A DNA stretch of 64,000 nucleotides, taken from assembly GCF_028368975.1 (NCBI RefSeq), contig NZ_JAQNDM010000002.1:930001-994000 (forward strand). The letters run 5' to 3'. The DNA is from Stigmatella ashevillena (lineage in GTDB: Bacteria > Myxococcota > Myxococcia > Myxococcales > Myxococcaceae). The position numbers and the translations under genes are program-made. Shown here piece by piece: positions 1,155-42,169 of the stretch; position 1 is the stretch's first letter; each line of letters opens with the position of its first letter. The notes below the pieces were generated by a model that had not been told where the DNA came from, ran no database searches, and worked only from the letters and a program-made list of their open reading frames with translations.

Positions 1155-4100
1155 TCATGGCTGGCCTCGCGGCTTCAAGTGGACCTCCTGCCCGGGAACG
1201 GCCATCACCCACTGGGCGAGATCCTCCTTGCCCGGGCAGATCACGAACACCTGGAGCTCCTTGCTCGCCTCGATGGACACCTTGATGGGCGCCTCCGCGG
1301 CCAGCGTCTGATCGCCGACCTTCACCTTGCAGCCCGGAACCGGCTCCGAGAGCAGCGTGCCGGGCGTGTTCCCCGAGATCATCGGCACCTCGGGAATGGA
1401 GTGCACATCCAGGAGGTCCTCGATGGTCATCCGCCCGAAGCGCTGGACCCGGTTGCGGTGGACGGTGGAGACGAGCACCTCTTCGGGATGGGCAAACCGC
1501 AGGTTCCCCTCGACCCGGAGCCCCTCGATGTAAAGGTGCTCGCCCCGCCGCAGGTTGACGATCCGGATGCCTTCCTCGGTGGGGAAGAAGAGCACGGCCG
1601 CCACGCCCACGATGGCCAGCAGCAGCGCCCCCACGCCCAAGCCGATCCACAGGCGAGGAGCGCGCCGGGCAGCGGGGCTGGCGGAGGGAGACACCTGGGC
1701 CAGGGGGGCGGCGGACACAGGCGGCGGGGGCGGCGGCGCGGGCACCGGGGCAGGCGCGACCGCCGGAATGGCCATCCGCGAGGGAGAGTGAACGGGGACC
1801 TGTGACGTGGGACGCGGCGCGCTCGGCTGGACCGAGGGCATCTGCGTGCTGGCCCGGGCCGGCGGCGGCGGCGCCACCGACGGCATGATGGTGGAGGGCC
1901 GAGCCGGGGGCGGCGGCGCGGCCGTGGCGGGCGGCATGGCCCGGATGCCGGAGCGGGTCGAGCTGCTCACCGCGGGATGGGCGCCCGAGGGCGGCGCCGC
2001 CGGGCGCATCGCGACCTGGCTGGGACGGCTCGGGGCCGCCGGCCCTTGCCCCGACGGCCGGGCCTCCGCGCGGGAGGGTCCCGCCATGTTCCCTTCGGCA
2101 GGGGGCGCGGCCTGGGGAGCCGCGGCCGCCGGGATAGACCGGGGTCCACTGCCGCTCGCACTGGGACGGGAGCCCGTCGCCCCGGCCCCGGGCCGCGAGC
2201 CCGTCAGGTTGGCGCGGGAACCGGAGCCCGTGCCCGAGCTCGCGACCGCCCCGGCGAGCCGCGCCGAGGACGCATCCGTCGCACCCGAGGGGATGCGCGG
2301 GTGAGAGCCAGAGCCTGGAGAGGCCACGGCCGGCGCGTACTCCGCCAGCCGGTCTCCCAGCGTGTCCTTGAAGAACTGGGCCACCGCGGCCGGCGAGGAG
2401 TTGAGGCGGTGGTGCGCCATCACCGCTTCGATCTCCTCCCGGAGCGCCGCCGCCGAGGGCGTGCGCCGCGCGGGATCCTTCACCAAGGCGCGCAGGATGA
2501 GGTCCGACACGTCCTGGGGAATGCTCGGCTTGAGCTGGGACGGCACGGGGGCCGGCTCACGCACGACGGCGTTGAGCGAGGCCGCGTCGTGATCCCTGCG
2601 GAACGGCAGCGTGCCGGTGAGCAACTCGAAGAGCACCACGCCCAAGGCGAACACGTCGTTGCGCGCGTCCAGCGGACGGCCCGCGGCGGCTTCCGGGGAG
2701 ATGTAGGAGATCTTCCCCTTGAGAACGCCCGCCTGCGTGTGGTCCTCGCCCTGCACCTTGGCGATGCCGAAGTCGCTCAGCTTGATGGCGCCATCGAGCG
2801 AGATGAGCACGTTGTGGGGGCTGACGTCGCGGTGCACCACCGGGTGCGCGTTGCCCGCGGGGTCCACGTAGCTGTGGGCGTAGTGCAGGCCGGCGGCCGT
2901 CTCGGCGACGATGCGCAGCGCGTGCTCCATGGGCAGGGCCAGCCCCTTGCGGCGCAAGTCGTTCATCAGCCGCTTGAGGTCCGGGCCTCGCACGTACTCC
3001 ATGAGGATGTACGCCACGCCGTCGGTGACGCCCACGTCGAAGGTCTGCACGACGTTGGGGTGCGTGAGCCGCGCGTTCGCCCGGGCCTCGGCGAAGAGCA
3101 TGTCCACGAACTCGGGGTTCTCGGCGAACTGCGCGAGAATCTTCTTCATCACCACGAACTTCTCGAAGCCCTTCACCCCCACCTGCTTGGCGAGGAACAC
3201 CTCCGCCATGCCGCCCTGCCCCAGCCGGCGGATGATCTGCAGCTTGCTGCCGCCGTGGGAGCTGCTGATGTCCGTGTGGTTGCCGCCGCCCGCCTGCTGG
3301 GCCTCGGCGTTGACGGCCCCGAAGAGGAACTGGGTGAGGGCCTTGGCCTCCAGCGCCTCGATGTCCTCCAGGGGGCGGTCCGTCAGCGGAATCCGGGCCA
3401 GGAACTGCGCCAGGTTGGGGATGGAGGCCAGCCGCGAGGCCCCGCCACAAATCACGCAGGGGCGCTCCTGGCCCTCGTTGACGCGCAGCTGCTGGACGAA
3501 GTCCGCGGCGTGGGCGCGCTGGTGGTGCAGCTGGCCGCAGTTCTGACACTCGTACGGCAGCCACAACGAGTGGATGCGCGCCGGCAGCGGCTTGCCGGAC
3601 TTGACCAGCGGCGCCAGCACCGAGGGCGGTACCCGGCAGAGCACCACCTGGGCCCCCTTGGAGGCCGTCTCCAGCACCTGCTCCAGCTTCACCACGCCTT
3701 CCAGCTCCACCTTGGCCACGTGGGAGAAGTCGAACGCGACGCGCCCCTCCAGGCCGGAGGCGAGCCGGCGCACGTTGAGATCGCCCCGGAGGACGCTCGC
3801 CAGCGTGATGTAGGTGATGTCGTCCTGGACCGTCTTCAGGTGCGACGGCAGGTCCAGCGGCTCGGCGGCGGAGGCCAGCCGCAGATAGCGCAGCACCACC
3901 GGATCCACCGTGCCCAGGTGCTGCCTTCGCGCGTAGTCGAAGAACTCGCTGGGAAGATCCGCGAACTCCAGGGGCTGGGTGCACACCGGGCAGGTGTGCT
4001 CGGGGGCGCGGTTCTCGGAGATGAGCTGCGCATCGTCGATCAGGTTGATGGCGCGCAGCCGGTCCTCGCTGCACGTGCGGCACGTGTACGGCGCCAGCAC

Positions 4101-4424
4101 CGACAGGACACGCGAGACGCCGGCGAAGCCCTCCACCATGTTGAGCTGATCCACCACCACCGGCGGGGCGTAGACCACGTACAGGCTGATGGCGCCGTTG
4201 GGCAGCTTGGAGACGAATTCGATCCACTTGCGCACGCCGAACGAGCTGATCCGGTCCACGCACCCGAGATCGACGATGACAATCCCCGTGAGATCCGGGG
4301 TAACGGACGACAGCGGGAACGTCTCGTCGATGACGCCAGACACCCGCACGTGGGAGATGTTCCCCACCCGGGATCGGCTGATGATTGCGTTCGAACCCTG
4401 GTTCTCCACCGTCCCTACCCTCAT
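1155..4424 (-). CDS. STAS/zinc-ribbon/STAS/zinc-ribbon Ser/Thr protein kinase with membrane anchor
   Basis: A 1089-residue protein. Residues about 15-110 and 200-290 each look like a STAS-type fold (alternating strands and helices with an LGCVDRISSFGVRKW-like core in the first). Each is followed by a four-cysteine zinc ribbon: C115/C118/C145/C148 and C293/C296/C323/C326. A complete Hanks-type kinase domain covers about 395-665: P-loop GQGGMAEVF (402-410), Lys in VMKK (427-428), HRDVSPHN (531-538), DFG (551-553). A long Pro/Ser/Ala-rich linker (about 700-920) leads to one membrane segment (about 925-946) and a 140-residue outer domain. The start ATG overlaps the stop of the upstream ATPase gene by 4 bases, which implies translational coupling. 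In partner switching, STAS proteins are Ser-phosphorylated by GHKL kinases and dephosphorylated by SpoIIE-type phosphatases; both partners are in this operon. That this protein is their target is inference. Confidence 0.85.
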   Translation of the reverse strand: MRVGTVENQGSNAIISRSRVGNISHVRVSGVIDETFPLSSVTPDLTGIVIVDLGCVDRISSFGVRKWIEFVSKLPNGAISLYVVYAPPVVVDQLNMVEGFAGVSRVLSVLAPYTCRTCSEDRLRAINLIDDAQLISENRAPEHTCPVCTQPLEFADLPSEFFDYARRQHLGTVDPVVLRYLRLASAAEPLDLPSHLKTVQDDITYITLASVLRGDLNVRRLASGLEGRVAFDFSHVAKVELEGVVKLEQVLETASKGAQVVLCRVPPSVLAPLVKSGKPLPARIHSLWLPYECQNCGQLHHQRAHAADFVQQLRVNEGQERPCVICGGASRLASIPNLAQFLARIPLTDRPLEDIEALEAKALTQFLFGAVNAEAQQAGGGNHTDISSSHGGSKLQIIRRLGQGGMAEVFLAKQVGVKGFEKFVVMKKILAQFAENPEFVDMLFAEARANARLTHPNVVQTFDVGVTDGVAYILMEYVRGPDLKRLMNDLRRKGLALPMEHALRIVAETAAGLHYAHSYVDPAGNAHPVVHRDVSPHNVLISLDGAIKLSDFGIAKVQGEDHTQAGVLKGKISYISPEAAAGRPLDARNDVFALGVVLFELLTGTLPFRRDHDAASLNAVVREPAPVPSQLKPSIPQDVSDLILRALVKDPARRTPSAAALREEIEAVMAHHRLNSSPAAVAQFFKDTLGDRLAEYAPAVASPGSGSHPRIPSGATDASSARLAGAVASSGTGSGSRANLTGSRPGAGATGSRPSASGSGPRSIPAAAAPQAAPPAEGNMAGPSRAEARPSGQGPAAPSRPSQVAMRPAAPPSGAHPAVSSSTRSGIRAMPPATAAPPPPARPSTIMPSVAPPPPARASTQMPSVQPSAPRPTSQVPVHSPSRMAIPAVAPAPVPAPPPPPPVSAAPLAQVSPSASPAARRAPRLWIGLGVGALLLAIVGVAAVLFFPTEEGIRIVNLRRGEHLYIEGLRVEGNLRFAHPEEVLVSTVHRNRVQRFGRMTIEDLLDVHSIPEVPMISGNTPGTLLSEPVPGCKVKVGDQTLAAEAPIKVSIEASKELQVFVICPGKEDLAQWVMAVPGQEVHLKPRGQP

Positions 4425-5281
4425 TCCATGCAGAACAGCAGCGATTTGGGGAGCGCGGCACGGCGGCGCGCCTCACCCAGGTCCACCGCACACAATACCC
4501 GAGACTCCCGCCCCTGGCTTACGTGCACGGCGATGGCATCACTGTGCTCGATCATCCGCCGCAACCCCAGTCCCGCGCCTCCACCCGAGGCATTGACCTG
4601 CACCCGCTTGCCATACGAGGCAAGCGCCTGCACGAAAGGCCGGGGCGTCAGCCGCCCGAACCTGTCCACCGCCTCCAGATAAATGCGGCCACCTTCTACC
4701 GCCAGCGCCAGTTCGCAGGCGTCCTCTGGATCAATCTCCTTCACCTCCGTGCGCCGGTGGGCATATTTCGGCTGCCCCTGCGCGTCCACGGGTGCATCCA
4801 GCATGGCATTGACGGCCAGCTCGTGCAGCACATCCGCTGCCAGGCTGGCGGCGGTCCGGGAACCGCCTGCCTCCACCACCACCATGGAGGCAGCCTCCGC
4901 CGCGTGCTGAACGTCCCTCAGGCGCGTCAGCCGCTGCCGCACCACGGTTCCTTCCGCGGGAACCAGCGAACCGCCTCGCAGCGCCGCGCCCAGCAGGACG
5001 GCCTCCCACTCCGTCAGGCCCCCTTCCGGGCCCCGGGTGGCCAGCAACAACGCCGGGGGCTCCCGCGACAGGAGATCCCCATGGGAGGGGCCCAGCAGGC
5101 CATCGAAGAGGACCAGCCGGCGGGCCTTGCGCGCCGCCTCCGCGCCATCGAGCCCAGACTGCAGGGAGACGCCCCCTCGCGCGAGCGTAGGGGCTACCTG
5201 CTCGAGCACCGTGGGCGCCAGCGAGGGGTCGGCAATCAGCAGGAGCCCGCGAGGGGGCTCCACCTGGATCGAGGCTCTCAA
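4421..5281 (-). CDS. GHKL ATPase, anti-sigma-factor-kinase-like
   Basis: A 286-residue soluble protein. The first 130 residues look like a receiver- or flavodoxin-like alpha/beta region without clear phospho-acceptor motifs. The C-terminal half carries the GHKL ATP-binding signature: N-box HELAVNAM (153-160, with Glu154 and Asn158), a G1-like VDRFG at 205-209, and a glycine-rich GGGAGLGL at 233-240. There is no H-box, so it is not a classic histidine kinase; the layout fits RsbW/SpoIIAB-type Ser kinases or GHKL regulators. It lies 5 bases after the TonB-receptor gene and overlaps the STAS-kinase start by 4 bases (ATGA). The likely role is to bind or phosphorylate the STAS domains of its neighbour. 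That is inferred from the family and the gene order only. Confidence 0.75.
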   Translation of the reverse strand: MRASIQVEPPRGLLLIADPSLAPTVLEQVAPTLARGGVSLQSGLDGAEAARKARRLVLFDGLLGPSHGDLLSREPPALLLATRGPEGGLTEWEAVLLGAALRGGSLVPAEGTVVRQRLTRLRDVQHAAEAASMVVVEAGGSRTAASLAADVLHELAVNAMLDAPVDAQGQPKYAHRRTEVKEIDPEDACELALAVEGGRIYLEAVDRFGRLTPRPFVQALASYGKRVQVNASGGGAGLGLRRMIEHSDAIAVHVSQGRESRVLCAVDLGEARRRAALPKSLLFCME

Positions 5282-5286
5282 GGGAG

Positions 5287-7764
5287 TCAGTAACGGACCT
5301 TGAGCTCGCTGTAGACGCCGCGGGGCGGCGCTGGGAACCCATGGGATTCCTCATACTGGGAATCGAACAGGTTGGTGCCCAGCAGCGACACGGAGATCCC
5401 CTCGTTGATGTTCACGCCCACGCGCGCGCTGGCCGTCACGTAGTCCGGCAGCTTGACGCGGTTGACCTCTCCGGTGGACTCCACCAGGAAGCCCGGATCG
5501 AAGCGCTGCCCCACGTACAGGGCGTACACCTCCGCGAACCCCACCTTGCCGATGTTGGTCCGGGCGCGCGCATAGACGCGGTGGTGCGGCGCGTAGTCGA
5601 GCTGGGAGGACGGCCCATCCCCGTACGGCAGCGACTGCGCGTCCAGGTACTGGTAGGCCACGTCGAACGAGGAGTTGGCGGCGGGCAGCTGCGCGGCCAC
5701 CTCCGCCTCGAAGCCCACCACCTGCGCATCGCCGATGTTCTGGAACTGCGAGGTGGAGCCGAAGACCAGGTTCTGATTGATGAAGTTCTTGGCGCGGTTG
5801 TAGAAGCCCGTGGCCGTCAGGCGCATCCGGCGATCGAAGGCCCAGTAGTCCACCGCCGCCTCGTAGGTGTCCAGCGTCTCGGCGCGCAGGGCCGGGTTGC
5901 CCAGGAGCGTCGCGGCGTACATCTGCTGGTTGATGGCGAGCTCGGCCAGCGTGGGGGCCCGGAAGGCGCGCCCGTAGTTGGTCCGCAGCGTGAGCTCCGG
6001 CAGCGCGTGGAACACGATGCTGGCGCGGGGCGAGAGCTGGTTGGTGCGCTCGGACCAGACCTCCTCGGGGATGAGGTACGAGTCGTACCGGACGCCGGCG
6101 CCCAGCACCAGGCGGCTCATCGGCCGGTACTCCGCGTCCACGAAGCCACCGATGATGGTCTGCGTGGTGTCATCCAGCGTCAGCCCGGACAGGACGTTCT
6201 GGTTGTTGACGAGATCGTCCTTCACGTCGCCACCGAAGGTGACGTTGAGGTTGCCCGCGGTGAGCAGCGCGCGCGCCTCGGCCCCGTACCGGCGGCGCTT
6301 GCCCAGCGCCGGCTCCAGCTTGCCGGTGATCATGTTCATCTGATCCACGACGCGCCGCTTATAGAGCGTGAAGGCCTGGCCGAAGACGCGCAGGTTGTCC
6401 GTCACCTGCGTGTCCACCTGCGCGGCGGCATTCAGGTTCTGCACGTTCTCGGTGTCGCTCGGCGTGTAGTGGCACCGGCCACAGTTGCCCACCGTGGAGA
6501 TCTGCGTGCCGCCGGGGCGGCCGATCTCCGCGTCGGTGAAGTCGGCATCGAGCGCGAACGCGCCCACCTTCACCTTGCCGCTGATCTGGTGCACCTGCGA
6601 GTCCTGGTTGGTGTCCACCAGCCCCGTCTGCGGGTTGTTGAAGAGCTGGGGGCCATCCGAGCCGAAGCCGTAGTAGCTGGCCAGCGCCTCCACCGGTCCA
6701 CCGCGGCCAGCCGCCGTGGCGTTCACGCGGAAGGTGCTGTCCTGGCCTGCCAGCACCCGACCATCGAAGCCGATGTTGTGGCCCTCTTTGATGAGGTCCG
6801 CGGGCTGGCGCTCGATGAGGTTGATGACGCCGCTGAAGGCGTTGGAGCCGTACAGCGAGGAGCCGGGACCGCGGATCACCTCCACCTGCTTGAGGTTGGA
6901 CAGCGGCGTCGTCTCATCCGCGTAGAACTGGCCCGTCCAGGGGTCCGTCAGCGGACGGCCGTCCTTCAGCAGCAGCAGCCGGTTGGACAGGTAGTTGGAG
7001 CCGAGGCCGCGCGCGCTGACCGCCGCCTTGCGCATGGAGCCGCGGCGGCACTCCAGGCCGGGGAAGTACTGGATCGCCTCGCAGAGCGTGAAGGCGCCCG
7101 TGCCCTCCAGCTCCTCGGCGGGGATCCACGCCACCGTCATGGGCACATCCTTGATGCGCTGGCGGCGCTTGGAGGCCGTCGTCACCACCGCCTCGCTCAG
7201 CAGCGCGTTCACCGAGTCCTCGATGGAGGAGCCATCCCCGGCGGGATCCGGCAGGTCCAGGCCCGCAAGGCCCGAGGGCGGCGGCAGCGCCCGCGACGGA
7301 ACGGGGTCCGCGAACGGCGCCGTGGGGGTGACCCGGTCCTGCGCCGGCTTCGTCGCGGTCTGCTTGGGCGCGGGCGTGACCGGCTTGGGCGCAGGCGCCA
7401 CCACCGGGGGCGCCGGGGGCGGCACCGGGGCGGGATCCGCCAGCACGGAATCCGGGATCGGCTCCCGGGTCCGGTATTCGGACGGGGGCGGCACGGTCGC
7501 CGGGGACGCCGGCGTCTCCCTGCCGGTCAGCGGCTCATCCTCCGTCGGGTCCTCCAGGACCGGAGGGGCCACGGGAGGCGGAGGTGGCGCTGGGGTCTTC
7601 TTCGAAGCCCCTGGACGCCGCTTGGTGGGCTTCGCTTTTGTCTGCGCCTCGGCGTTGCCTGCGGCAAGGCCCATGATTACGCATACGCTGAAGACCAGGG
7701 GGAGCTGCAGGAACGCCCGTGCCGCGATGCGTCGCGGCCAGCCCAAAACAGTCGAGTGCATCAT
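5287..7764 (-). CDS. TonB-dependent outer-membrane receptor with Pro-rich N-terminal extension
   Basis: The frame is open from 7881, but residues MMHSTVLGW at 7764 begin a typical signal peptide ending near AEAQ, so I place the start there (825 residues); the codon at 7761 is an alternative. After the signal comes an unusual stretch of about 140 residues rich in Pro, Lys and Ala, then a plug domain (QVEVIRGPGSSLYGSNAFSG is the canonical plug signature), then a beta-barrel ending in an aromatic residue (KVRY), as outer-membrane proteins do. Near residue 428 the barrel region contains CGRCH, a CXXCH heme-attachment motif. TonB receptors import siderophores, heme, cobalamin or glycans, and some transduce signals. 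Its place between a PhnD-type binding protein and a partner-switch ATPase and kinase suggests a sensing role. The ligand cannot be told from the sequence. Confidence 0.88.
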   Translation of the reverse strand: MMHSTVLGWPRRIAARAFLQLPLVFSVCVIMGLAAGNAEAQTKAKPTKRRPGASKKTPAPPPPPVAPPVLEDPTEDEPLTGRETPASPATVPPPSEYRTREPIPDSVLADPAPVPPPAPPVVAPAPKPVTPAPKQTATKPAQDRVTPTAPFADPVPSRALPPPSGLAGLDLPDPAGDGSSIEDSVNALLSEAVVTTASKRRQRIKDVPMTVAWIPAEELEGTGAFTLCEAIQYFPGLECRRGSMRKAAVSARGLGSNYLSNRLLLLKDGRPLTDPWTGQFYADETTPLSNLKQVEVIRGPGSSLYGSNAFSGVINLIERQPADLIKEGHNIGFDGRVLAGQDSTFRVNATAAGRGGPVEALASYYGFGSDGPQLFNNPQTGLVDTNQDSQVHQISGKVKVGAFALDADFTDAEIGRPGGTQISTVGNCGRCHYTPSDTENVQNLNAAAQVDTQVTDNLRVFGQAFTLYKRRVVDQMNMITGKLEPALGKRRRYGAEARALLTAGNLNVTFGGDVKDDLVNNQNVLSGLTLDDTTQTIIGGFVDAEYRPMSRLVLGAGVRYDSYLIPEEVWSERTNQLSPRASIVFHALPELTLRTNYGRAFRAPTLAELAINQQMYAATLLGNPALRAETLDTYEAAVDYWAFDRRMRLTATGFYNRAKNFINQNLVFGSTSQFQNIGDAQVVGFEAEVAAQLPAANSSFDVAYQYLDAQSLPYGDGPSSQLDYAPHHRVYARARTNIGKVGFAEVYALYVGQRFDPGFLVESTGEVNRVKLPDYVTASARVGVNINEGISVSLLGTNLFDSQYEESHGFPAPPRGVYSELKVRY

Positions 7765-7969
7765 TCTCACATCCGCCAGTGGATCAGCCAAAACCGGGTG
7801 AGGCCCGTACGCCAGTCCGCATGAAGAGAAGACCCTGACCCTCAAGGGTCCCCTTCTGAACATCCGGACTGTTGAATTCAAGTTACCCTACTGTCTTCAC
7901 CCACGCCAAGGGATTGCCCGGAACCAATGGATCGTCCCGGGTCCTTGCCTGGGGCCTACCCCCAAGGTC
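7765..7969. other. Intergenic region inside the signalling operon
   Basis: This 205-base gap separates the PhnD-type gene from the TonB-receptor gene. Just after the PhnD stop the minus strand reads CCTTGGGG, a short spacer and CCCCAGG, an imperfect hairpin. A second perfect small hairpin, GACCC-TCAA-GGGTC, lies at 7837-7850. The gap could hold an internal promoter or a partial terminator that adjusts receptor level. I see no convincing -35/-10 pair. Confidence 0.3.
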
Positions 7970-8869
7970 TCAATCATCCGGCTGTTCGGACGAGACGTCC
8001 ATCACGCTGGTGAAGGAGGGCAGCACGGGGTTGAGCTGGCCTGCGCGCACCAGTGCGTCGGTGTCCACTCTGAGTTGGGGCGACTCGACGATCACCGGCT
8101 GGCGCTGCGCGGGCCCCTTCTGGGCAAGCTTGCGGAAGTCCTCGAACTCGCGGCCCTGCACCCGCACGAAGCCGCTGAAGGGCGCCACGGCCTCCAGCTT
8201 CGACAGTTGCGCCTCCAGCGCGTTGTCCCGCAGGTTCACCAGCACCGCCCCGGGCACCTTGGTGCTGCGGAAGAGCACGCGCGCGTCCTTGGGAACATGC
8301 GACAGCGGCACCAGCGCGGCCTCCGCCCCCTTGGCCTCGAGCATCTTCAGCGCCGATTCCACGTTGGGCACCGAGACCACCTTGAAGTGCTTCTGGGCAT
8401 CCAGGTCCCCGCCGAAGACGATGTGGGAGACGAACTTCACGTCCGAGGGGCCCGCACCCTTGGTGAGGGCCAGCCGCTTGCCTTGGAGATCCTTCACGCT
8501 CCCCTTCGCCTGAGAGACGATGGCCCAGCGCTGGGTCGTCTCCCCCGCGAGCGCCGCGAAGGCGACGGGGGTGGCTTTTTCCCCGAGCTGCACCGCCGAC
8601 CAGGCATCCACCACCGCGAAGTCGACGAGCCCATCGGTGACGGCCTTGGCGAAGTCCTCGTAGCGGCCGAAGCTCTTGGCCGCCACGGGCGCCTCGAGCA
8701 CCGTGCCCAACTGCGCCGCCAGGCTCTCGGCGAAGGTGAAGCGCTGCTGGCCATCGGTCAGGGTGGTGGGAAGAAAGACTCCGAGCGTGGCCTTCTTCTC
8801 GGCCCACGCGGCGGGAGTCCAGGCGCTCAACAGCACCAGTCCAAGCAACAGGAAGCGGGAGGTTTTCAT
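7970..8869 (-). CDS. PhnD-type (phosphate/phosphonate-like) periplasmic binding protein
   Basis: A 299-residue protein with a clean signal peptide (residues 1-23, cut after AWA). The body matches the PhnD/phosphonate-binding family layout: LGVFLPTTLTDG at the first strand, then the YEDFAKAVTDGLVDFAVVDAWSA region where these proteins line the ligand cleft, and DLQGKRLALT at the second lobe hinge. No transport ATPase or permease gene is nearby, so it probably acts as a sensor or receptor subunit rather than an importer. Its ATG overlaps the stop of the upstream TPR gene by 4 bases. The next gene encodes a TonB receptor. The family call is good. The ligand is unknown and need not be a phosphorus compound. 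Confidence 0.75.
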   Translation of the reverse strand: MKTSRFLLLGLVLLSAWTPAAWAEKKATLGVFLPTTLTDGQQRFTFAESLAAQLGTVLEAPVAAKSFGRYEDFAKAVTDGLVDFAVVDAWSAVQLGEKATPVAFAALAGETTQRWAIVSQAKGSVKDLQGKRLALTKGAGPSDVKFVSHIVFGGDLDAQKHFKVVSVPNVESALKMLEAKGAEAALVPLSHVPKDARVLFRSTKVPGAVLVNLRDNALEAQLSKLEAVAPFSGFVRVQGREFEDFRKLAQKGPAQRQPVIVESPQLRVDTDALVRAGQLNPVLPSFTSVMDVSSEQPDD

Positions 8870-11379
8870 GGAAGGGTCTCCGTGGCGGTGGCCTCGGTGG
8901 CCTCGGAGGAGGCAGCGCCTCCCAGGCCGTGAAGGGCCATCAGGCGATCACGCCACTCACGGGCCGTCGCCGCGCGAGGGCCGCCTGAGGCCAGGTAGCG
9001 GCGGTAGGACTCCACCGCCTCGGGAATGTCATTGCGGCGCTGGGCTTCGATTCCCAGGTTGAACGAGGCCATGGGCACCGAGGTCTCCAGCTTGTGCCAC
9101 ACGGCCACGGCGTCGGGGAACTTGCGCTTGCCGTAGTTCACGCACGCGAGGTTGTGCTGTAGCGCAGCGTCCTCCTGTGCTCCGGCCAGGGCGGCCTTGA
9201 AGGCCTTCTCGGCCAGCTTGAAGTTCCCCGTGGCATAGGCGCGCTCCCCTTCGAGCCGGTGGAGCGAGTTGGACAGCGAGGCAATCCACTTCGCCTGCCA
9301 GGACGAGGGCTTCTTCGACGCGGCGGCCAGCGCCTTGCGCGCGAAGGGCACCTGGCCCTTGCGGTAGAGGACGTAGGCCTCCGCCAGGAAGCGCGTGTTG
9401 GCATCCGCCCAGGCCGGTGTCGGCGTCAGCGCCCGCTTGAGCAGGGGCGTGGCCTCCGCGAAGCGGCCCTGCTCGGTCTGGACGAGGGCCTTGGTGAGCA
9501 GGGCCAGCTTGGCCAGCTCCGGCTGCTTGGCCAGGTTGAACTTCTCCGTCAGCTCGACGTCCTTGCGCGCGTTCTCCACGTCCGCCGACTCCAGGCGGGT
9601 CAGCGCGCGGCGCAGCAGCATCAGCGGCAGGTTGGCCTCGGCCAGTTGCCGGGCCGCCTTGGAGGGGCCGGGCTCGGAGAGGCGCTCCACGGCGTCGTCC
9701 ACGCGGCCCAGCTCCACCTCCGCGAGCGCCGCGCCCACGGACACATCGGCCAATTCCGACGGCTCCTCGGTGCGCTTCTCGGCCTGAACGAAGGCGCGCA
9801 GCGCGGCCTCGGCGTTCCCCTCGCCCAGGTGGGCGTAGCCCAGCAGCCAGTGCTCGCGCCAGGTGGCGCCCTCCAAGGTCACGCCCTGCTCCAGCACCGG
9901 GCGGGCCTGCGCGAAGGCCCGCTGCTCCAGCAGCGCCGCGCCCAGCCGGCGGGCCATGGCCGCGCTGCGCTCGAGATCATACGCCCGGCGCAGATCCCTC
10001 ACCGCGTCATCCAGCCGGTTGCTGTCCGCGCGGCCACGGGCCCGGTGCGCCAACGACTGGGCCAGCCACTGCTGCGCCCCCGGGTGATTGGGCTCGACCC
10101 GGAGCGCGTTGGAGTAATCCTCGATGGCCTGATCCCACTGGCCGGTGGCGAAGTGGTCCGCCCCCAGCAGCACGTGGCCCAGGGCCTGCTGCGGGGCCAG
10201 CTCCACGAGGCGCCGGTGGACTTCCACCGCGCGCTGGAAGCGTCCCGCGCGGCGGTTGACGGAGCCGAGCGAAGCCCACAGCTCCAGGTTGCCCCCGTCG
10301 GTCTCCAGCGCGGCCTCGAGGTACTTGATGGCCTCCTCGTTGCGGCCCTGCGCCTGGAGCGCCTTGCCCACGGCGATCTGGGCGGCCACCACGCCCGGCG
10401 CCAACTCCAGCACCTTGCGGAACTCGGCCTCGGCCTCCTTCGGCTGCTTCTGCGCGAGCCGCACGTCTCCGAGCAGCAGGTGCGCGGCCGGGGTGCCTTC
10501 CAGCTTCACCAGGGCCAGGGCCTGCTTCTCCGCGCCCGCCACGTTCCCAGAGCGCAGGAACATCCGGCCCAGGCGCTCCTTGGGCTCCTTGGCCTGAGGG
10601 AAGCGGTCCACGAGCCCCTCGACCAGCGTCAGGGCCTCCTCGTCACGGCCTTCCGCCTCCAGCACGGAGGCCAGACCCATCTGCGCGGTCACGGACTCGG
10701 GACGGCCCGCCTGCGCCTGCTGGAAGGCCGCGCGCGCGGCGGCCACGTCCTTGCGCATCAGGTGGCCCTGACCGATGAGCTCGTGAATCTGGAAGTCGTT
10801 GACCGCCAGCTTCGGGGGGCGCTGCGCCAGGTACCGCTGGAACTTGGCGATGGCCACATCCCCGCGCCGGCCATGCAGGTAGTAGGAGCCCAGGTAGTAG
10901 TTGACGATGAGGTGCTCGGGCGCGTTGTTCTCCGACACCTTCTCCAGCAGCGGCACCGCCTCCTGGAAACGGCGCAGCTTGAAGAGCGCCACGCCCAGCG
11001 GGAACGTCAGGGAGACGTCCTCGGGGTGGCTGGCGCTCACCTCGGGGAGCTTCGCGGCCACGCGGGCATAGTCCCCCAGGGCATTGGCCGTGGCACCGAG
11101 GCCCGCGGCCGCCGGCGCCGAGGTGGGATCCAAGGTCAACGCCTGCTCGAAGAGCTGGAGGGCCTTCCGGTTCTTCTCCTCCGCCTCCTTCTTGTTGCCC
11201 GCGGTGACGGCGGCGCTGGCCGACACCTGGGCGGTCTCCGCCTCCTTCACCAGGAGCTGGGACTCGGTGAGGGGGGGCGGACGGTACTGGGCAAAGGCCA
11301 CCGGGCCCGAGAACAGATGGACGAGGGCAAGCGCCGCGGCAAGGCGGCGCGCCGAGGGAGGTCTAGACATGCGGCTCAT
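8866..11379 (-). CDS. Exported TPR-repeat protein
   Basis: An 837-residue protein with an N-terminal signal (residues 1-30, ending AFAQ), then tetratricopeptide repeats over nearly the whole length. Many units show the W-LG-Y-A-P pattern, for example NRKALQLFEQALTLDPTSAPA and AIEDYSNALRVEPNHPGA. Such solenoids act as scaffolds for protein complexes, here on the outer face of the inner membrane or in the periplasm. The start at 11379 is followed by a second Met at codon 4; both keep the signal peptide. It sits 12 bases after the phosphatase gene and overlaps the PhnD-type gene by 4 bases, so these three are clearly one transcription unit. A scaffold between receptor, binding protein and membrane phosphatase is a reasonable inference. 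Confidence 0.85.
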   Translation of the reverse strand: MSRMSRPPSARRLAAALALVHLFSGPVAFAQYRPPPLTESQLLVKEAETAQVSASAAVTAGNKKEAEEKNRKALQLFEQALTLDPTSAPAAAGLGATANALGDYARVAAKLPEVSASHPEDVSLTFPLGVALFKLRRFQEAVPLLEKVSENNAPEHLIVNYYLGSYYLHGRRGDVAIAKFQRYLAQRPPKLAVNDFQIHELIGQGHLMRKDVAAARAAFQQAQAGRPESVTAQMGLASVLEAEGRDEEALTLVEGLVDRFPQAKEPKERLGRMFLRSGNVAGAEKQALALVKLEGTPAAHLLLGDVRLAQKQPKEAEAEFRKVLELAPGVVAAQIAVGKALQAQGRNEEAIKYLEAALETDGGNLELWASLGSVNRRAGRFQRAVEVHRRLVELAPQQALGHVLLGADHFATGQWDQAIEDYSNALRVEPNHPGAQQWLAQSLAHRARGRADSNRLDDAVRDLRRAYDLERSAAMARRLGAALLEQRAFAQARPVLEQGVTLEGATWREHWLLGYAHLGEGNAEAALRAFVQAEKRTEEPSELADVSVGAALAEVELGRVDDAVERLSEPGPSKAARQLAEANLPLMLLRRALTRLESADVENARKDVELTEKFNLAKQPELAKLALLTKALVQTEQGRFAEATPLLKRALTPTPAWADANTRFLAEAYVLYRKGQVPFARKALAAASKKPSSWQAKWIASLSNSLHRLEGERAYATGNFKLAEKAFKAALAGAQEDAALQHNLACVNYGKRKFPDAVAVWHKLETSVPMASFNLGIEAQRRNDIPEAVESYRRYLASGGPRAATAREWRDRLMALHGLGGAASSEATEATATETLP

Positions 11380-11391
11380 TCGGTTTCCAGG

Positions 11392-13194
11392 CTAGGAGGC
11401 AGTGCTGAATTCGGCGACGACGACGGTGATGTCATCGCGCTGGGGTTGACCCGCGCTGAAGGCGCGCACGTCCGCCAGGATGGCGTCGCGCAGGCCTTCG
11501 GCGGTGAGCTGGGCGTTGGTCTGAACGGCGGCACCCAAGCGCTGGGTGCCATACAGCTTGCCGGCCGCATCCCGCGCCTCGGTGAGCCCGTCCGTGTACC
11601 AGACGATGATATCGCCTGGGCGGAGCTGGGCCTGACGCGAGGAGTACTGAGAGGACACGGAGGCGCCCAACAGGGGACCGCGTGCCGGCAACGAGGCGAA
11701 CTGTCCGGACAAGCGGTTGTAGACGCACGCGGCCGGGTGGCCCCCCGCCGCGTAGTCGATGAGGCCCGTCTGCACATCGATGACGGCCAGGGCGCTGGAC
11801 ATCTGGTACTCGCCGCGGCCCAGGTGGGCCAGGGTGATGTTGAGCGCGCTGATGAGCACCTGGGAGTTGAGCTGATCCGGCTCGCGCATCGTCATGGCCG
11901 AGGCGAAACCGCTGGTCGCGCTGGTGGCCACCAACGCCGTGGAGAGCCCGTGGCCGGTGACATCGCCGACGCCAATCACGACGCGCTGCTCATCCAAGGG
12001 GGCGCGGAACCACCAGTCTCCACCGCACGCATCCGCGGTGACGACGAGGCCCGCCATGCGCATGGTGCCCATCTGGAAGGCCTCGCGGCCGGGCAGAAGC
12101 GTCTCCTGAACGGTGCGCGCCAGCGACACCTCGCGCTCCAGCTGCGCCTTGGAGCGAACATCTTCCAGGAGGACCTTGATGCGCTCGGCCATGTGGTTGA
12201 ACACGACGCTCAGGGTGCTCACCTCGCGGCCGGCCCCCGTGGCCTGACCCGCGCGGGCGTTGAGGTCACCGGCGGCCAGCTGCATCACCCGGCGCGTCAA
12301 CACGCCCAGGGGACGGGTGATGCGGCGGCTCTGGATGGCGGCGACCACACTGGCCAGCAGCACGAAGCCCAGGCCCAGAATCAAGGCGTTGCGCACCGTG
12401 GTCCGCAGCGCCTCGTCCTTGTTCTCCTTCAGCACCTGGAGTTGCCGCTGCAACTCATCGAGCGAGTAGCTGATGACGATGAGCCCCTTGCCACTCTGGG
12501 AGCCATAGTCGAGGGGCTCCTGGAACTCGAACACGGGCCGGTTCTTGAACACCGCGCCCTGCACGTTGCGCTCGGGCTTGCGGCCGCCCGAGGCCGTGCC
12601 CAGCTTCGCCTCCGGGTCCGAGTCGGCCACCAGCAGGCTGTCCGCGTCGAACATCTGCACACGGAGGATGTTGCGGTTGTCCGAGATGATGGCGCGCGCC
12701 ACATCGGTGAGGAAGGCGTAGTTGTTGTCGCGCAGGGAGGTGGCGGAGGTGAGCGCCAGGGTGTGGCTCACCGTCTGGCCCAGCTCGCGCGCGTGGCTCT
12801 GGGTCCGCTCCGTGAAGGTGGCGGAGGCCTCCTCGAATTGGGACGTGGTGGACACCGCCGAGAGCGCCGTCAGCAGGCCGACGATGACCAGCACGAGCGC
12901 GCCGGTGGTCAGCAGGAGGATCTGATCCAGCCGCATCCCCCGGATGGAGGCGACATCGGGCAGCTCTCCGGCCTCGAGCGGCGCGACGATGGTGCCGGTC
13001 ATCTCTCCGGCCACCGGCGCAGCCAGGGTGGTGCTGGTGAATTGGGCGTGCTGGTGAGTTCCCGTGCTCTCGTACCGGCCCGTATCTCTCGCAGAGCGGC
13101 CCGGAGAGGGGGTTTCCTCGGGAACAGGGGCAAGGCGTGTGTTCGTCTTCAAGGACCCACCTGGCTGCAGGCCGCGAGAGGGACGCGGACCCAT
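11392..13194 (-). CDS. Membrane sensor with HAMP and SpoIIE/RsbU-type PP2C phosphatase domain
   Basis: A 600-residue protein read from ATG 13194. Residues 1-86 are low-complexity; internal Met codons at 65 and 87 (the latter at 12936, just before the first membrane segment) are possible real starts. Membrane segments lie at about 91-112 and 268-288 with an extracytoplasmic sensor between them, followed by HAMP (about 289-340), a short coil and a PP2C/SpoIIE domain (about 380-600). Metal-binding motifs are visible: DACGGDWW, GDVTGHG and the C-terminal RDDITVVV. Enzymes of this family remove phosphate from Ser on STAS proteins. It is the first gene of the operon that ends with the STAS kinase, so those STAS domains are the obvious candidate substrate. 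Confidence 0.88.
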   Translation of the reverse strand: MGPRPSRGLQPGGSLKTNTRLAPVPEETPSPGRSARDTGRYESTGTHQHAQFTSTTLAAPVAGEMTGTIVAPLEAGELPDVASIRGMRLDQILLLTTGALVLVIVGLLTALSAVSTTSQFEEASATFTERTQSHARELGQTVSHTLALTSATSLRDNNYAFLTDVARAIISDNRNILRVQMFDADSLLVADSDPEAKLGTASGGRKPERNVQGAVFKNRPVFEFQEPLDYGSQSGKGLIVISYSLDELQRQLQVLKENKDEALRTTVRNALILGLGFVLLASVVAAIQSRRITRPLGVLTRRVMQLAAGDLNARAGQATGAGREVSTLSVVFNHMAERIKVLLEDVRSKAQLEREVSLARTVQETLLPGREAFQMGTMRMAGLVVTADACGGDWWFRAPLDEQRVVIGVGDVTGHGLSTALVATSATSGFASAMTMREPDQLNSQVLISALNITLAHLGRGEYQMSSALAVIDVQTGLIDYAAGGHPAACVYNRLSGQFASLPARGPLLGASVSSQYSSRQAQLRPGDIIVWYTDGLTEARDAAGKLYGTQRLGAAVQTNAQLTAEGLRDAILADVRAFSAGQPQRDDITVVVAEFSTAS

Positions 13195-39994: not shown

Positions 39995-42169
39995 TTGCGC
40001 GATAAGAACGTGTCGAGCCCGCCCATCCGTTTCCTCATCTATCCTGCGCAGGGAGAGGTCAGGGAGCACGTCAGGGCCGAGTTTTTTGGCCGGGCGCTTT
40101 CCCAGCGGGTGGGCCGTCCCATCGTCGTGGAGATGGCCCGCACCTATGAGGCCATCGAGCAGGAGCTGGCCGCGGACCGGGTGGACATCGTCTGGGCCAC
40201 CGCCGAGCAGTGCAACGCGTTCGAGTCCAAGGCCCGCGCCATCCTGCGCGCGGTGCGCGCCGGGCGCTACCACTACCACGCGGCCCTCATCTGCCGCGCC
40301 CAGGAGCCCCTCACCCTCAAGCAGCTCCAGGGCACCCGCGCCGCCTGGGTCGCCCCCATGTCCACGGGAGGCCACCTGCTGGCCATCCGCCATTTGGAGG
40401 CCCAGGGGCTGATCCCCGCGGAGGTGTTCGCCGAGCAGCGCTTCGTCGGCAGCTACCGCAACGCCCTGCTCGCGGTGGCCGAGGGCACGTCGGACATGGC
40501 GTCGCTCTTCACGACCCACCCGGACGAGTACACGGTCCGAGCCCGCCTCGCCGAGCGTGTAGGGGTAGCCGCGCGCCAGCTGACCGCCTTTGCCTTCACC
40601 GAGCCCACCCTCGCCGACGGGCTCATCCTCACCTCGCGCCTGTCAGAGGAGGACTGTGCCGCGATCGTGTCGGCCCTCACCACGATGACGCAGGATGGGA
40701 GCGGCCTGGATCCGCTGCTCGGCTCCTTCAACATCGAGGGCTTTGCCCTCGCTACCTCCTCCCGGAGCCCGGCCCAGCCCTTCTCTCCGATCCAACGCAC
40801 GGAGTTCCTCGCGGCGGAGGTGGACGCAGAAGAGCGGTGCAGCAAGCTCTGGTCCTTCACCGGCCTGGCCTTCGGACAGGAGGTGAGCGGCCGGGAAGGG
40901 CTCTCGCTGGAAGAGGCCCTGCCCCCGGAGGCGAGCGCGCTCCTGGGGGCGCTCGTGCGGGCCACGCGCCACAGCGGTGTGGGGGGCCGGGTGGAGTACC
41001 GCCTGGAGTCTGGTGGAGAGAGCCGCCTGTACGCCGCCGAGGCCGCCCCTCGGGGGGCTCGCTCGGGGGGGACCTCCCCGCGCACCACGCTGCTGGTCCG
41101 GGACATCACCGAGCAACAGGCCCTGGAGGTGGACCTGTACCGCCTGGCGTCGTTCCCCCTGCTCCACCCTGAGCCCATGATGGAGCTGAGCCTGAACGGC
41201 GCCCTGCACTACGCCAATCCGGCCGCCAGCCATGCCTTCCCGGACCTCCAGGCACTCGGGGCGAGCCATCCGCTGGTGGAGACCACGCTCGAGTGGGTCC
41301 GGCGTGGAAAGCCCGGCGAGAGCCCGCCCCTGGTGCACCTGGCGGGCCGGTACTGGGAGCTGATGGTCTCCGTGCTCCAGGAGACCGGCACCCTGCGGCT
41401 CTTCGTGAAGGATGTGACGTCGCGCAAGCAGATCGAAGCGCGCCTGCTCCACGCCGACCGCATGGCCGCGCTGGGCTCGCTGGCGTCCCGGGTGGGCCAT
41501 GAGATGAACAACCCGTTGGCCTTCCTGATGGCCAACCTCTCCTTCGCCCGGGAGGAAATCAGCCGGCTGCGCGAGTCGCTGCGCTCGGACCCGGTCCCCA
41601 CCCGCCTGGAGGATCTCAACGAGGTGATGGATGCGCTGGGGGAGTCCCTGGACGGCGCGGAGCGGCTGAAGACGATCATCCAGGATCTGCGCACCCTGGC
41701 GCGCGAGCCCCCCACCCACCGGGCCCGGGTCGACCTGCACCCGGTGCTGGAAGATGCGCTGAAGCTGGTGCGCAACGAGCTGCGCCACCGGGGCCGCCTG
41801 GAGAAGGACTTCCAGCCCGTGCCCACGGTGGAGGCGGACGAGGCGCGGCTCGGCCAGGTCTTCCTCAACCTGATGATCAACGCGGTGCAGGCCATGTCCG
41901 AGCAGGACGCACAGCGCAACGTGCTGCGGGTGAGCACGCGCACCGGACCTGCCGGGGAGGCCATCGTCGAGGTGCAGGACACCGGGGCGGGGATGACGCC
42001 CGAGGTGCTCTCGCGCCTGTTCGAGCCGTTCTTCACCACGCGCTCCAACAGCGCGGGCATGGGCTTGTCGGTGAGCCACGCCATCGTGACGAGCCTGGGA
42101 GGAACCCTCCGGGCCGAGAGCGAGCTGGGCACGGGCACCCTCTTCACCGTCACCCTTCCGGCCACGTGA
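39995..42169 (+). CDS. Cytosolic sensor histidine kinase with N-terminal PhnD-type binding domain
   Basis: A 724-residue protein without signal peptide or membrane segment. Residues about 10-255 form a complete PhnD-type ligand-binding domain (RFLIYPAQGEVREHVRAEFF, then the DRVDIVWATAEQCNAFE cleft and the KQLQGTRAAWVAPMSTGG hinge). Two PAS-like regions follow (about 270-380 and 385-480). The kinase core has the H-box VGHEMNNPLAF with His502 and an ATPase domain (N-box NLMINAVQAM, G1 DTGAGM, GMGLSVSHAIV). PhnD domains are normally periplasmic, so this one must read an internal ligand. The start is TTG 39995 (AGAAG upstream) or GTG 40010. It is followed after 7 bases by a second kinase and then a response regulator. 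Confidence 0.85.
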   Translation: MRDKNVSSPPIRFLIYPAQGEVREHVRAEFFGRALSQRVGRPIVVEMARTYEAIEQELAADRVDIVWATAEQCNAFESKARAILRAVRAGRYHYHAALICRAQEPLTLKQLQGTRAAWVAPMSTGGHLLAIRHLEAQGLIPAEVFAEQRFVGSYRNALLAVAEGTSDMASLFTTHPDEYTVRARLAERVGVAARQLTAFAFTEPTLADGLILTSRLSEEDCAAIVSALTTMTQDGSGLDPLLGSFNIEGFALATSSRSPAQPFSPIQRTEFLAAEVDAEERCSKLWSFTGLAFGQEVSGREGLSLEEALPPEASALLGALVRATRHSGVGGRVEYRLESGGESRLYAAEAAPRGARSGGTSPRTTLLVRDITEQQALEVDLYRLASFPLLHPEPMMELSLNGALHYANPAASHAFPDLQALGASHPLVETTLEWVRRGKPGESPPLVHLAGRYWELMVSVLQETGTLRLFVKDVTSRKQIEARLLHADRMAALGSLASRVGHEMNNPLAFLMANLSFAREEISRLRESLRSDPVPTRLEDLNEVMDALGESLDGAERLKTIIQDLRTLAREPPTHRARVDLHPVLEDALKLVRNELRHRGRLEKDFQPVPTVEADEARLGQVFLNLMINAVQAMSEQDAQRNVLRVSTRTGPAGEAIVEVQDTGAGMTPEVLSRLFEPFFTTRSNSAGMGLSVSHAIVTSLGGTLRAESELGTGTLFTVTLPAT

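Follow-up and report, generated by a model that had tools for sequence, protein, structure and literature searches.

The window analysed here, a stretch of 64,000 nucleotides from Stigmatella ashevillena (contig NZ_JAQNDM010000002.1, positions 930,001 to 994,000), contains a block of six open reading frames (ORFs) on the minus strand, running from 13194 to 1155. In order of transcription, these encode a phosphatase, a TPR protein, a PhnD-type binding protein, a TonB receptor, a GHKL protein and a STAS-kinase fusion; this order had been given in a preliminary description of the DNA and was borne out. As judged from its genes, the operon is a variant form of partner switch not previously described, the kind of switch itself being known, and the presence of such a gene set in predatory soil bacteria suggests a route carrying an outside signal into the cell. 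The genes and their parts are as follows (STAS-Zn, a STAS domain with a four-cysteine module).

11392..13194, minus: SpoIIE/PPM-type phosphatase, 600 amino acids (aa), called from Pfam SpoIIE and HAMP matches and motifs; predicted membrane segments at residues 92-110 and 269-287, the stretch between being taken as periplasmic; HAMP 289-339; PPM 401-596
8866..11379, minus: TPR protein, 837 aa, with a signal peptide-like N-terminus; many TPR models in Pfam
7970..8869, minus: PhnD/Phosphonate-bd binding protein, 299 aa, with a signal peptide-like start; Pfam Phosphonate-bd
5287..7881, minus: TonB-dependent receptor, start more likely at 7761; Pfam barrel and Plug
4421..5281, minus: GHKL kinase of the SpoIIAB/RsbW type, 286 aa; motifs and predicted fold
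1155..4424, minus: fusion protein, 1089 aa, consisting of STAS-Zn, STAS-Zn, Ser/Thr kinase, membrane segment and C-terminal part
3963..4388, minus: first STAS and four-cysteine module, residues 13-154; Ser61 in RISSFG; Cys115, 118, 145 and 148
4242..4244, minus: codon of Ser61, aligned with the SpoIIAA/RsbV phospho-serine
3435..3839, minus: second STAS and four-cysteine module, residues 196-330; Leu at the serine position; Cys293, 296, 323 and 326
2442..3239, minus: protein kinase domain, residues 396-661
1584..1640, minus: single, strongly predicted membrane segment of the kinase protein, residues 929-947, followed by ~140 residues

From the phosphatase gene to the kinase gene, the junctions consist of a 12-bp gap, a 4-bp overlap (of the TPR and PhnD genes), an 88-bp gap, a 5-bp gap and a 4-bp overlap. 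Three tight junctions had been claimed previously; the tightness was confirmed but not the number, as four of the five junctions lie within 12 bp. The sole loose junction is that between the PhnD and TonB genes. The ORF list probably places the receptor start too far upstream and the actual start is probably 7761, because relatives begin at or share the methionine of an MHST motif; with this start the gap becomes 208 bp. The same gap measured 68 to 181 bp in nine relatives, with start sites picked by a heuristic.

The phosphatase matched the Pfam models SpoIIE (135 bits) and HAMP (36 bits) and contained the motifs CGGDWW (390), GDVTGHG (410), TDGLTE (534) and RDDITV (586). Aspartates 393, 411, 535, 587 and 588, which we take to be those of the PPM metal site, were invariant in 10/10 sequences. 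Judged by sequence, the PPM centre is intact, and the SpoIIE/PPM component of a partner switch is present. Three SpoIIE matches over the cut-off were detected in the window's own genome, that of the operon scoring 138 bits versus 29.9 and 24.8 for the others. Against the NCBIfam SiaA model (NF038263) the phosphatase scored 67 bits, well short of the cut-off of 700.

The 286-aa protein matched nothing in Pfam up to an E value of 1 or in NCBIfam up to 0.01; its assignment as GHKL rests, therefore, on motifs and predicted fold. Residues E154, N158, D206 and G209 and the GGGAGLG motif at 233-239 were invariant in 19/19 sequences, and the G1 box reads DxFG, the usual form being DxGxG. An AlphaFold model derived from 19 sequences had a pLDDT (predicted local distance difference test score) of 84. 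Foldseek ranked a SpoIIAB chain first for this model (E 3.6e-6), and comparison with SpoIIAB using VIA-align gave a Z score of 12.4 over 129 residues at 2.3 A. The twelve best rows had Z scores of 12.4 to 9.3, followed by a drop to 6.3 for histidine kinases, and the entries in those twelve were SpoIIAB, UsfX-RsfB, RsbV/RsbW, SiaB-SiaC, LvrC, a sigF/anti-sigma complex and Rv1364c. The protein is thus modelled as having a SpoIIAB/RsbW-type Bergerat domain (~110-270) with the ATP-site motifs intact. A degenerate receiver may make up the N-terminal half: D60 is invariant, but the fold rows span mainly 110-270 and the LvrC Foldseek rows had a TM (template modelling) score of 0.31.

Pfam matches of the fusion protein were to Pkinase (143 bits) and STAS (28.7 bits, above the cut-off of 22.6). 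Ser61 of the first STAS domain was invariant in 14/14 sequences and occupies what is presumably the column of the SpoIIAA/RsbV phospho-serine; in a low-confidence model this acceptor lies at a helix start (predicted helix 61-71, after strand 47-59). K427, E446, HRD (531-533) and DFG (551-553) were likewise invariant in 14/14, and the kinase domain is apparently active. A C-x2-C...C-x2-C module follows each STAS domain, with all eight cysteines invariant in 16/16, and this cysteine pattern suggests binding of zinc. The previous claim that the operon encodes a complete phosphatase, GHKL and STAS set was, therefore, upheld by the phosphatase aspartates, the GHKL fold and Ser61 of the first STAS domain.

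The STAS-Zn family extends beyond these operons. Stretches were taken around selected matches (38, plus six more, one of them a repeat), weak GHKL places at G012:C261 and G102:C37 and a fragment in G120 lying outside the stretches taken, and a comparison set of 69 STAS-Zn domains was assembled from the 38 stretches and the window. Serine was found in the acceptor column of 45/46 first or only domains versus 1/23 second ones, and all four cysteines were present in 45/46 and 21/23, respectively. The lone first domain without the serine is separated by one in-frame stop from another STAS piece. The phospho-acceptor expected on the STAS domains is, hence, kept in the first domain but lost from the second. 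Nine chosen free STAS-Zn frames and the first domain of the window shared invariant Ser, Gly, Arg and Trp residues and all four cysteines. A profile of these ten domains compared with solved structures matched zinc fingers first, with the STAS antagonists TM1442 (0.0077) and RsbV (0.027) ranking lower. Among GHKL domains outside the standard operon, 13/19 were within 3 kb of a STAS-Zn domain (two in the same frame) and 6/19 within 3 kb of a phosphatase domain; the 19 count locus L067 once and include two (L083 and L102) found via other queries, without which the former figure is 11/17. The novel elements, as read from these alignments, are the four-cysteine module on each STAS domain and the occurrence of STAS-Zn domains as free proteins near GHKL genes, and the family provides a handle for finding other such switches.

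Species genomes scanned with the kinase protein yielded 21 named loci in the Myxococcaceae. The full six-gene order was present in 17 of these, and the other four (L001, L005, L006 and L012) were only cut by locus ends, with each gene up to the cut present; the arrangement is, therefore, not due to chance. Profile searches were performed on 195 Myxococcota genomes with the GHKL protein, the STAS-Zn N-terminus and PhnD, and on 96 family genomes with the phosphatase as query, scoring the best 8-13 candidates per genome. Matches were detected in 74 (GHKL, at 0.001), 74 (STAS-Zn N-terminus) and 81 (PhnD) of the 195 genomes, and in 61/96 for the phosphatase at 1e-80. These four proteins were counted genome-wide, the TonB and TPR proteins being outside the count, with strong orthologues defined by cut-offs of 1e-60 (1e-80 for the phosphatase). 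Each had a strong orthologue in 61/96 family genomes; all four were present in 56, none in 31 and some in 9. PhnD and the phosphatase were concordant in 96/96 (both in 61, neither in 35), while GHKL disagreed with these two only in G067, where the GHKL match was weaker than the cut-off, and in G102. The kinase disagreed with PhnD in eight genomes, namely G080, G083, G115, G133, G091, G092, G093 and G102. In the first four of these the kinase was missing, which may be due to broken assembly, as the GHKL matches end at positions 213 to 229 of 283 and the assemblies consist of 800 or more contigs. Co-occurrence across the Myxococcota, proposed as a check in the preliminary description, thus came out in favour of linkage: the GHKL protein, kinase N-terminus, PhnD and phosphatase, as counted, are not independently distributed. 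The sequence comparisons indicate that the six genes, which add a receptor, a PhnD-type protein and a TPR protein to the switch, were mostly inherited together.

Re-assorted sets were found in family f17. Locus L083 (genome G016) has the order TPR - PhnD - GHKL - STAS-Zn - phosphatase (PP2C) - TonB, with 4-bp overlaps at the TPR-PhnD and PhnD-GHKL junctions and with STAS-Zn as a free protein lacking a kinase fusion. Locus L102 (G015, from another genus of f17) has the order PhnD - GHKL - STAS-Zn - phosphatase - TonB; a frame at its contig edge closes, as judged by eye, in the manner of the TPR protein of L083, though the TPR profile gave no match. The L083 phosphatase contains sCache, HAMP and SpoIIE domains and could be aligned, together with its upstream part, to the window's family across 474 columns (30% identity), and the L083 TPR protein matched the window type at an E value of 1e-12, a value that the repeats alone could give. 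That the families recur in a different arrangement, with STAS-Zn not fused to a kinase, is the strongest argument for a joint function of all six.

For the receptor, only plug and barrel models matched in Pfam (Plug 68 bits, barrel 136 bits); a Pro-rich stretch precedes the plug, and the MHST at the likely start is conserved. A CxxCH motif (CGRCH), the usual form of haem c attachment, was noted in the barrel region (residues 467-471; 6469-6483, minus); it is present in 8/8 aligned Myxococcaceae receptors and absent from the L083 receptor. The PhnD protein matched Pfam Phosphonate-bd at 43 bits, and a profile of ten PhnD proteins matched MCA1014 (7t1m) at 7.7e-6. A sterol ligand was considered and rejected, since the match to the NCBIfam BstB sterol-binding model (NF045601) was too weak, at 23.8 bits versus a cut-off of 350; PMC10942540 describes a TPR-like part in BstC, which is a lead only.

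That envelope proteins are encoded alongside the switch, as claimed earlier, was confirmed by gene linkage, and on the strength of this linkage the switch may receive its input from the receptor, PhnD and TPR proteins. Instead of supplying input, these three proteins could form an uptake or envelope system that is regulated by, or merely co-transcribed with, the switch as its cargo or targets. PhnD relatives are mostly solute-binding proteins, the PhnD-TonB junction is loose in the window and in relatives, and one genome (G108) has the TPR and PhnD genes apart from those for the phosphatase, GHKL protein and kinase. However, the six genes include no permease or ATPase gene for phosphonate ABC (ATP-binding cassette) uptake, and the same families are reunited in a different order in f17. 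Elsewhere in the window (39995-42169, plus), moreover, a 724-aa protein fuses a PhnD-type domain to a histidine kinase, making PhnD a likely sensor there. The cargo explanation was, on this evidence, considered doubtful.

Our interpretation is that the operon encodes a trans-envelope partner switch gating a Ser/Thr kinase, to which, with inputs and gating inferred, a probability of roughly 0.55 is assigned. The TonB receptor would take up or bind a ligand that reaches the periplasm, where PhnD, with the TPR protein, would signal its presence to that part of the phosphatase which faces the periplasm. This enzyme would strip phosphate from Ser61, and the GHKL protein would phosphorylate Ser61 with ATP unless bound by the unphosphorylated first STAS domain. 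Binding or release of the GHKL protein would make the linked kinase domain more or less active, and this domain would then phosphorylate further proteins, the second STAS domain possibly serving as a fixed, non-phosphorylatable docking or dimerising module. Sequence and predicted fold give the partner-switch part a firm basis; the receptor input and the kinase gating are plausible steps that we infer. A more specific version is tentative, at somewhat less than even odds: that the TonB, PhnD and TPR proteins set the phosphorylation of STAS-Zn, giving an outer membrane-to-cytoplasm route without an extracytoplasmic function (ECF) sigma factor or two-component system, with STAS-Zn free in one lineage and, in the Myxococcaceae, fused to and directly gating a membrane-anchored Ser/Thr kinase.

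Several findings weigh against this interpretation. Pfam lacks any match for the GHKL protein. The model of the STAS N-terminus was poor (pLDDT 67) and its first Foldseek row was an unrelated hydratase, with STAS antagonists, SpoIIAA-SpoIIAB entries and RsbS appearing at E values of about 0.01 to 0.02. Identity between the L083 and window proteins was only 22% for PhnD and 24% for TonB, both large families. The genome counts are non-independent samples, and the Fisher p-values calculated from them disregard common ancestry and are not to be taken as probabilities. Among the genomes, G091, G092 and G093 keep the kinase alone of the four counted proteins, and the rest of the set was absent from the 19-kb stretches around it. 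In G102 the GHKL protein and kinase occur, but close orthologues of PhnD and the phosphatase do not; the PP2C frame ~1.2 kb upstream is more distantly related. G108 splits the set, with phosphatase-GHKL-kinase at one place and TPR-PhnD at another, which makes a strict unit less likely. In genus g3, four genomes (L074-L077; G062, G065, G066 and G063) carry a second STAS-Zn kinase copy in which Ser61 is kept, with no partner gene in the 19.5-20 kb taken. Ser61 is retained by each of the seven orphan kinases (L071-L077), indicating that this residue was not freed to change when the GHKL neighbour was lost; Ser61 loss in kinases without a GHKL neighbour, a candidate line of support for the switch, was not seen and no support was gained. 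This result decides little, because these kinases may be served in trans by other GHKL proteins.

Divergent genes that we take to encode pyruvate dehydrogenase E1 subunits adjoin the locus in both the window and G093. As the lone kinase of G093 adjoins these E1 genes just as the operon does, and its 19-kb stretch is without other members, five genes were probably lost there. Survival of the kinase without the rest in G091-G093 could also favour a simple kinase-phosphatase pair, in which the phosphatase acts directly on the targets or activation-loop sites of the linked kinase and the STAS and GHKL parts are a minor module; membrane segments are predicted in both proteins, whose genes lie in a single operon. 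A phosphatase of the SpoIIE type, an invariant STAS serine and an adjacent SpoIIAB-like kinase mark a partner switch instead, and such a pair was regarded as quite improbable. G113 and G129, which are probably close relatives of each other, are without all four counted proteins and have other genes adjoining their E1 gene; a protein of ~1925 aa is encoded near the E1-beta gene, the G113 copy having kinase, AAA, GAF and histidine-kinase domains. In G067, a TonB gene precedes a GHKL frame that weakly matches STAS (17 bits) and is truncated by the contig edge.

None of the 40 Sigma70_r2 matches found in the genome lay within 300 kb of the operon, excluding an operon-encoded sigma target of that family, while an unlinked one may exist. 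This absence of a nearby sigma gene, together with the invariance of the kinase residues in 14/14 and the persistence of the kinase alone in three genomes, argues against an alternative in which the main output is the GHKL protein holding an unlinked target, with STAS-Zn as antagonist and the kinase as a parallel output or membrane anchor. SpoIIAB and RsbW do work by holding a target, the genome has 40 sigma-factor matches at other places, kinase-free STAS-Zn proteins occur near GHKL genes and the L083 set runs without the fusion. This alternative was, on balance, judged unlikely. Under the preferred interpretation of a gated kinase, one myxobacterial eukaryote-like kinase would gain a defined switch and a defined envelope input; to our knowledge, the inputs of most such kinases are not known.

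Comparisons were made with known systems. The RsbU-RsbW-RsbV and SpoIIE-SpoIIAB-SpoIIAA switches likewise have a PPM phosphatase, a Bergerat kinase and an acceptor-serine STAS protein encoded together, and the GHKL fold matches theirs. They differ from the operon in that here the STAS domains are fused to a Ser/Thr kinase and bear four-cysteine modules, envelope genes are included and no sigma gene is nearby. SiaA-SiaB-SiaC-SiaD of Pseudomonas is similar in having a membrane HAMP phosphatase, and SiaB-SiaC was among the fold matches; its output is a diguanylate cyclase, whereas the output here would be a kinase. In FecA-FecR-FecI an outer-membrane receptor gene also adjoins a signalling set, but that system ends in an ECF sigma factor via FecR, while the receptor here has a Pro-rich stretch before the plug and matched only plug and barrel models in Pfam. 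LvrC of Leptospira is, like the GHKL protein, a two-part protein, and its SpoIIAB-like Bergerat domain was matched (Z 9.8). According to PMC13269768, a histidine kinase feeds the canonical receiver of LvrC; by contrast, no histidine kinase is encoded among the six genes, and the N-terminal half of the GHKL protein is only a putative receiver. A publication of 2010 (PMC2887360) already noted eukaryote-like kinases joined to STAS domains in Sorangium cellulosum, with no receptor, PhnD or TPR linkage or zinc modules described in the part available. The contrast drawn in the preliminary description with switches ending in a sigma factor or a cyclase was, therefore, too strong.

No description of the operon as a system was found in searches of open-licence PMC papers. 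For M. xanthus, PMC2887360 counts 96 eukaryote-like kinases, calls co-organisation of kinase and phosphatase genes extremely low and reports one SpoIIE-like phosphatase, mxan4562, with a HAMP domain. MXAN_4559 is given as a TonB-dependent receptor with a predicted barrel (PMC3222651) and was detected in outer membrane vesicle fractions (PMC4158809). The spacing of 4562 and 4559 suggests that MXAN_4562 to MXAN_4557 are this operon, and, given the single SpoIIE-like phosphatase reported in PMC2887360, its switch may be the only SpoIIE-type switch of M. xanthus. MXAN_4545-4561 are listed as a lantipeptide cluster in PMC4902038, which fits the lantibiotic dehydratase-like gene located after the kinase in relatives. 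The next frame after the kinase opened -19 to 74 bp from the stop in 10/14 loci having the kinase end; these ten frames appeared by eye to be one family, the L002 member of which (L002:13320-15650) matches PF04738 (lantibiotic dehydratase).

Downstream of the kinase in the window lies a c-type cytochrome gene (3-1076, minus), with a membrane-anchor-like start and three CxxCH motifs, which opens about 80 to 150 bp past the kinase stop, depending on the start chosen. It was considered as a seventh operon member and rejected: no CxxCH protein was encoded within the next three frames after the kinase in any of the 14 relatives having the kinase end, and the gene is therefore outside the unit. A tblastn search with the whole cytochrome protein gave no match beyond the window's own stretch. 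At another place in the genome (G000:C2:8171588-8173215), two STAS matches and one SpoIIE match lie next to each other, forming a further small set that resembles a partner switch. One of the named loci (L010; BNCN01000007.1), from a record titled Comamonas sp. KCTC 72670, bears a typical Myxococcus-like locus, and the record is probably mislabelled.

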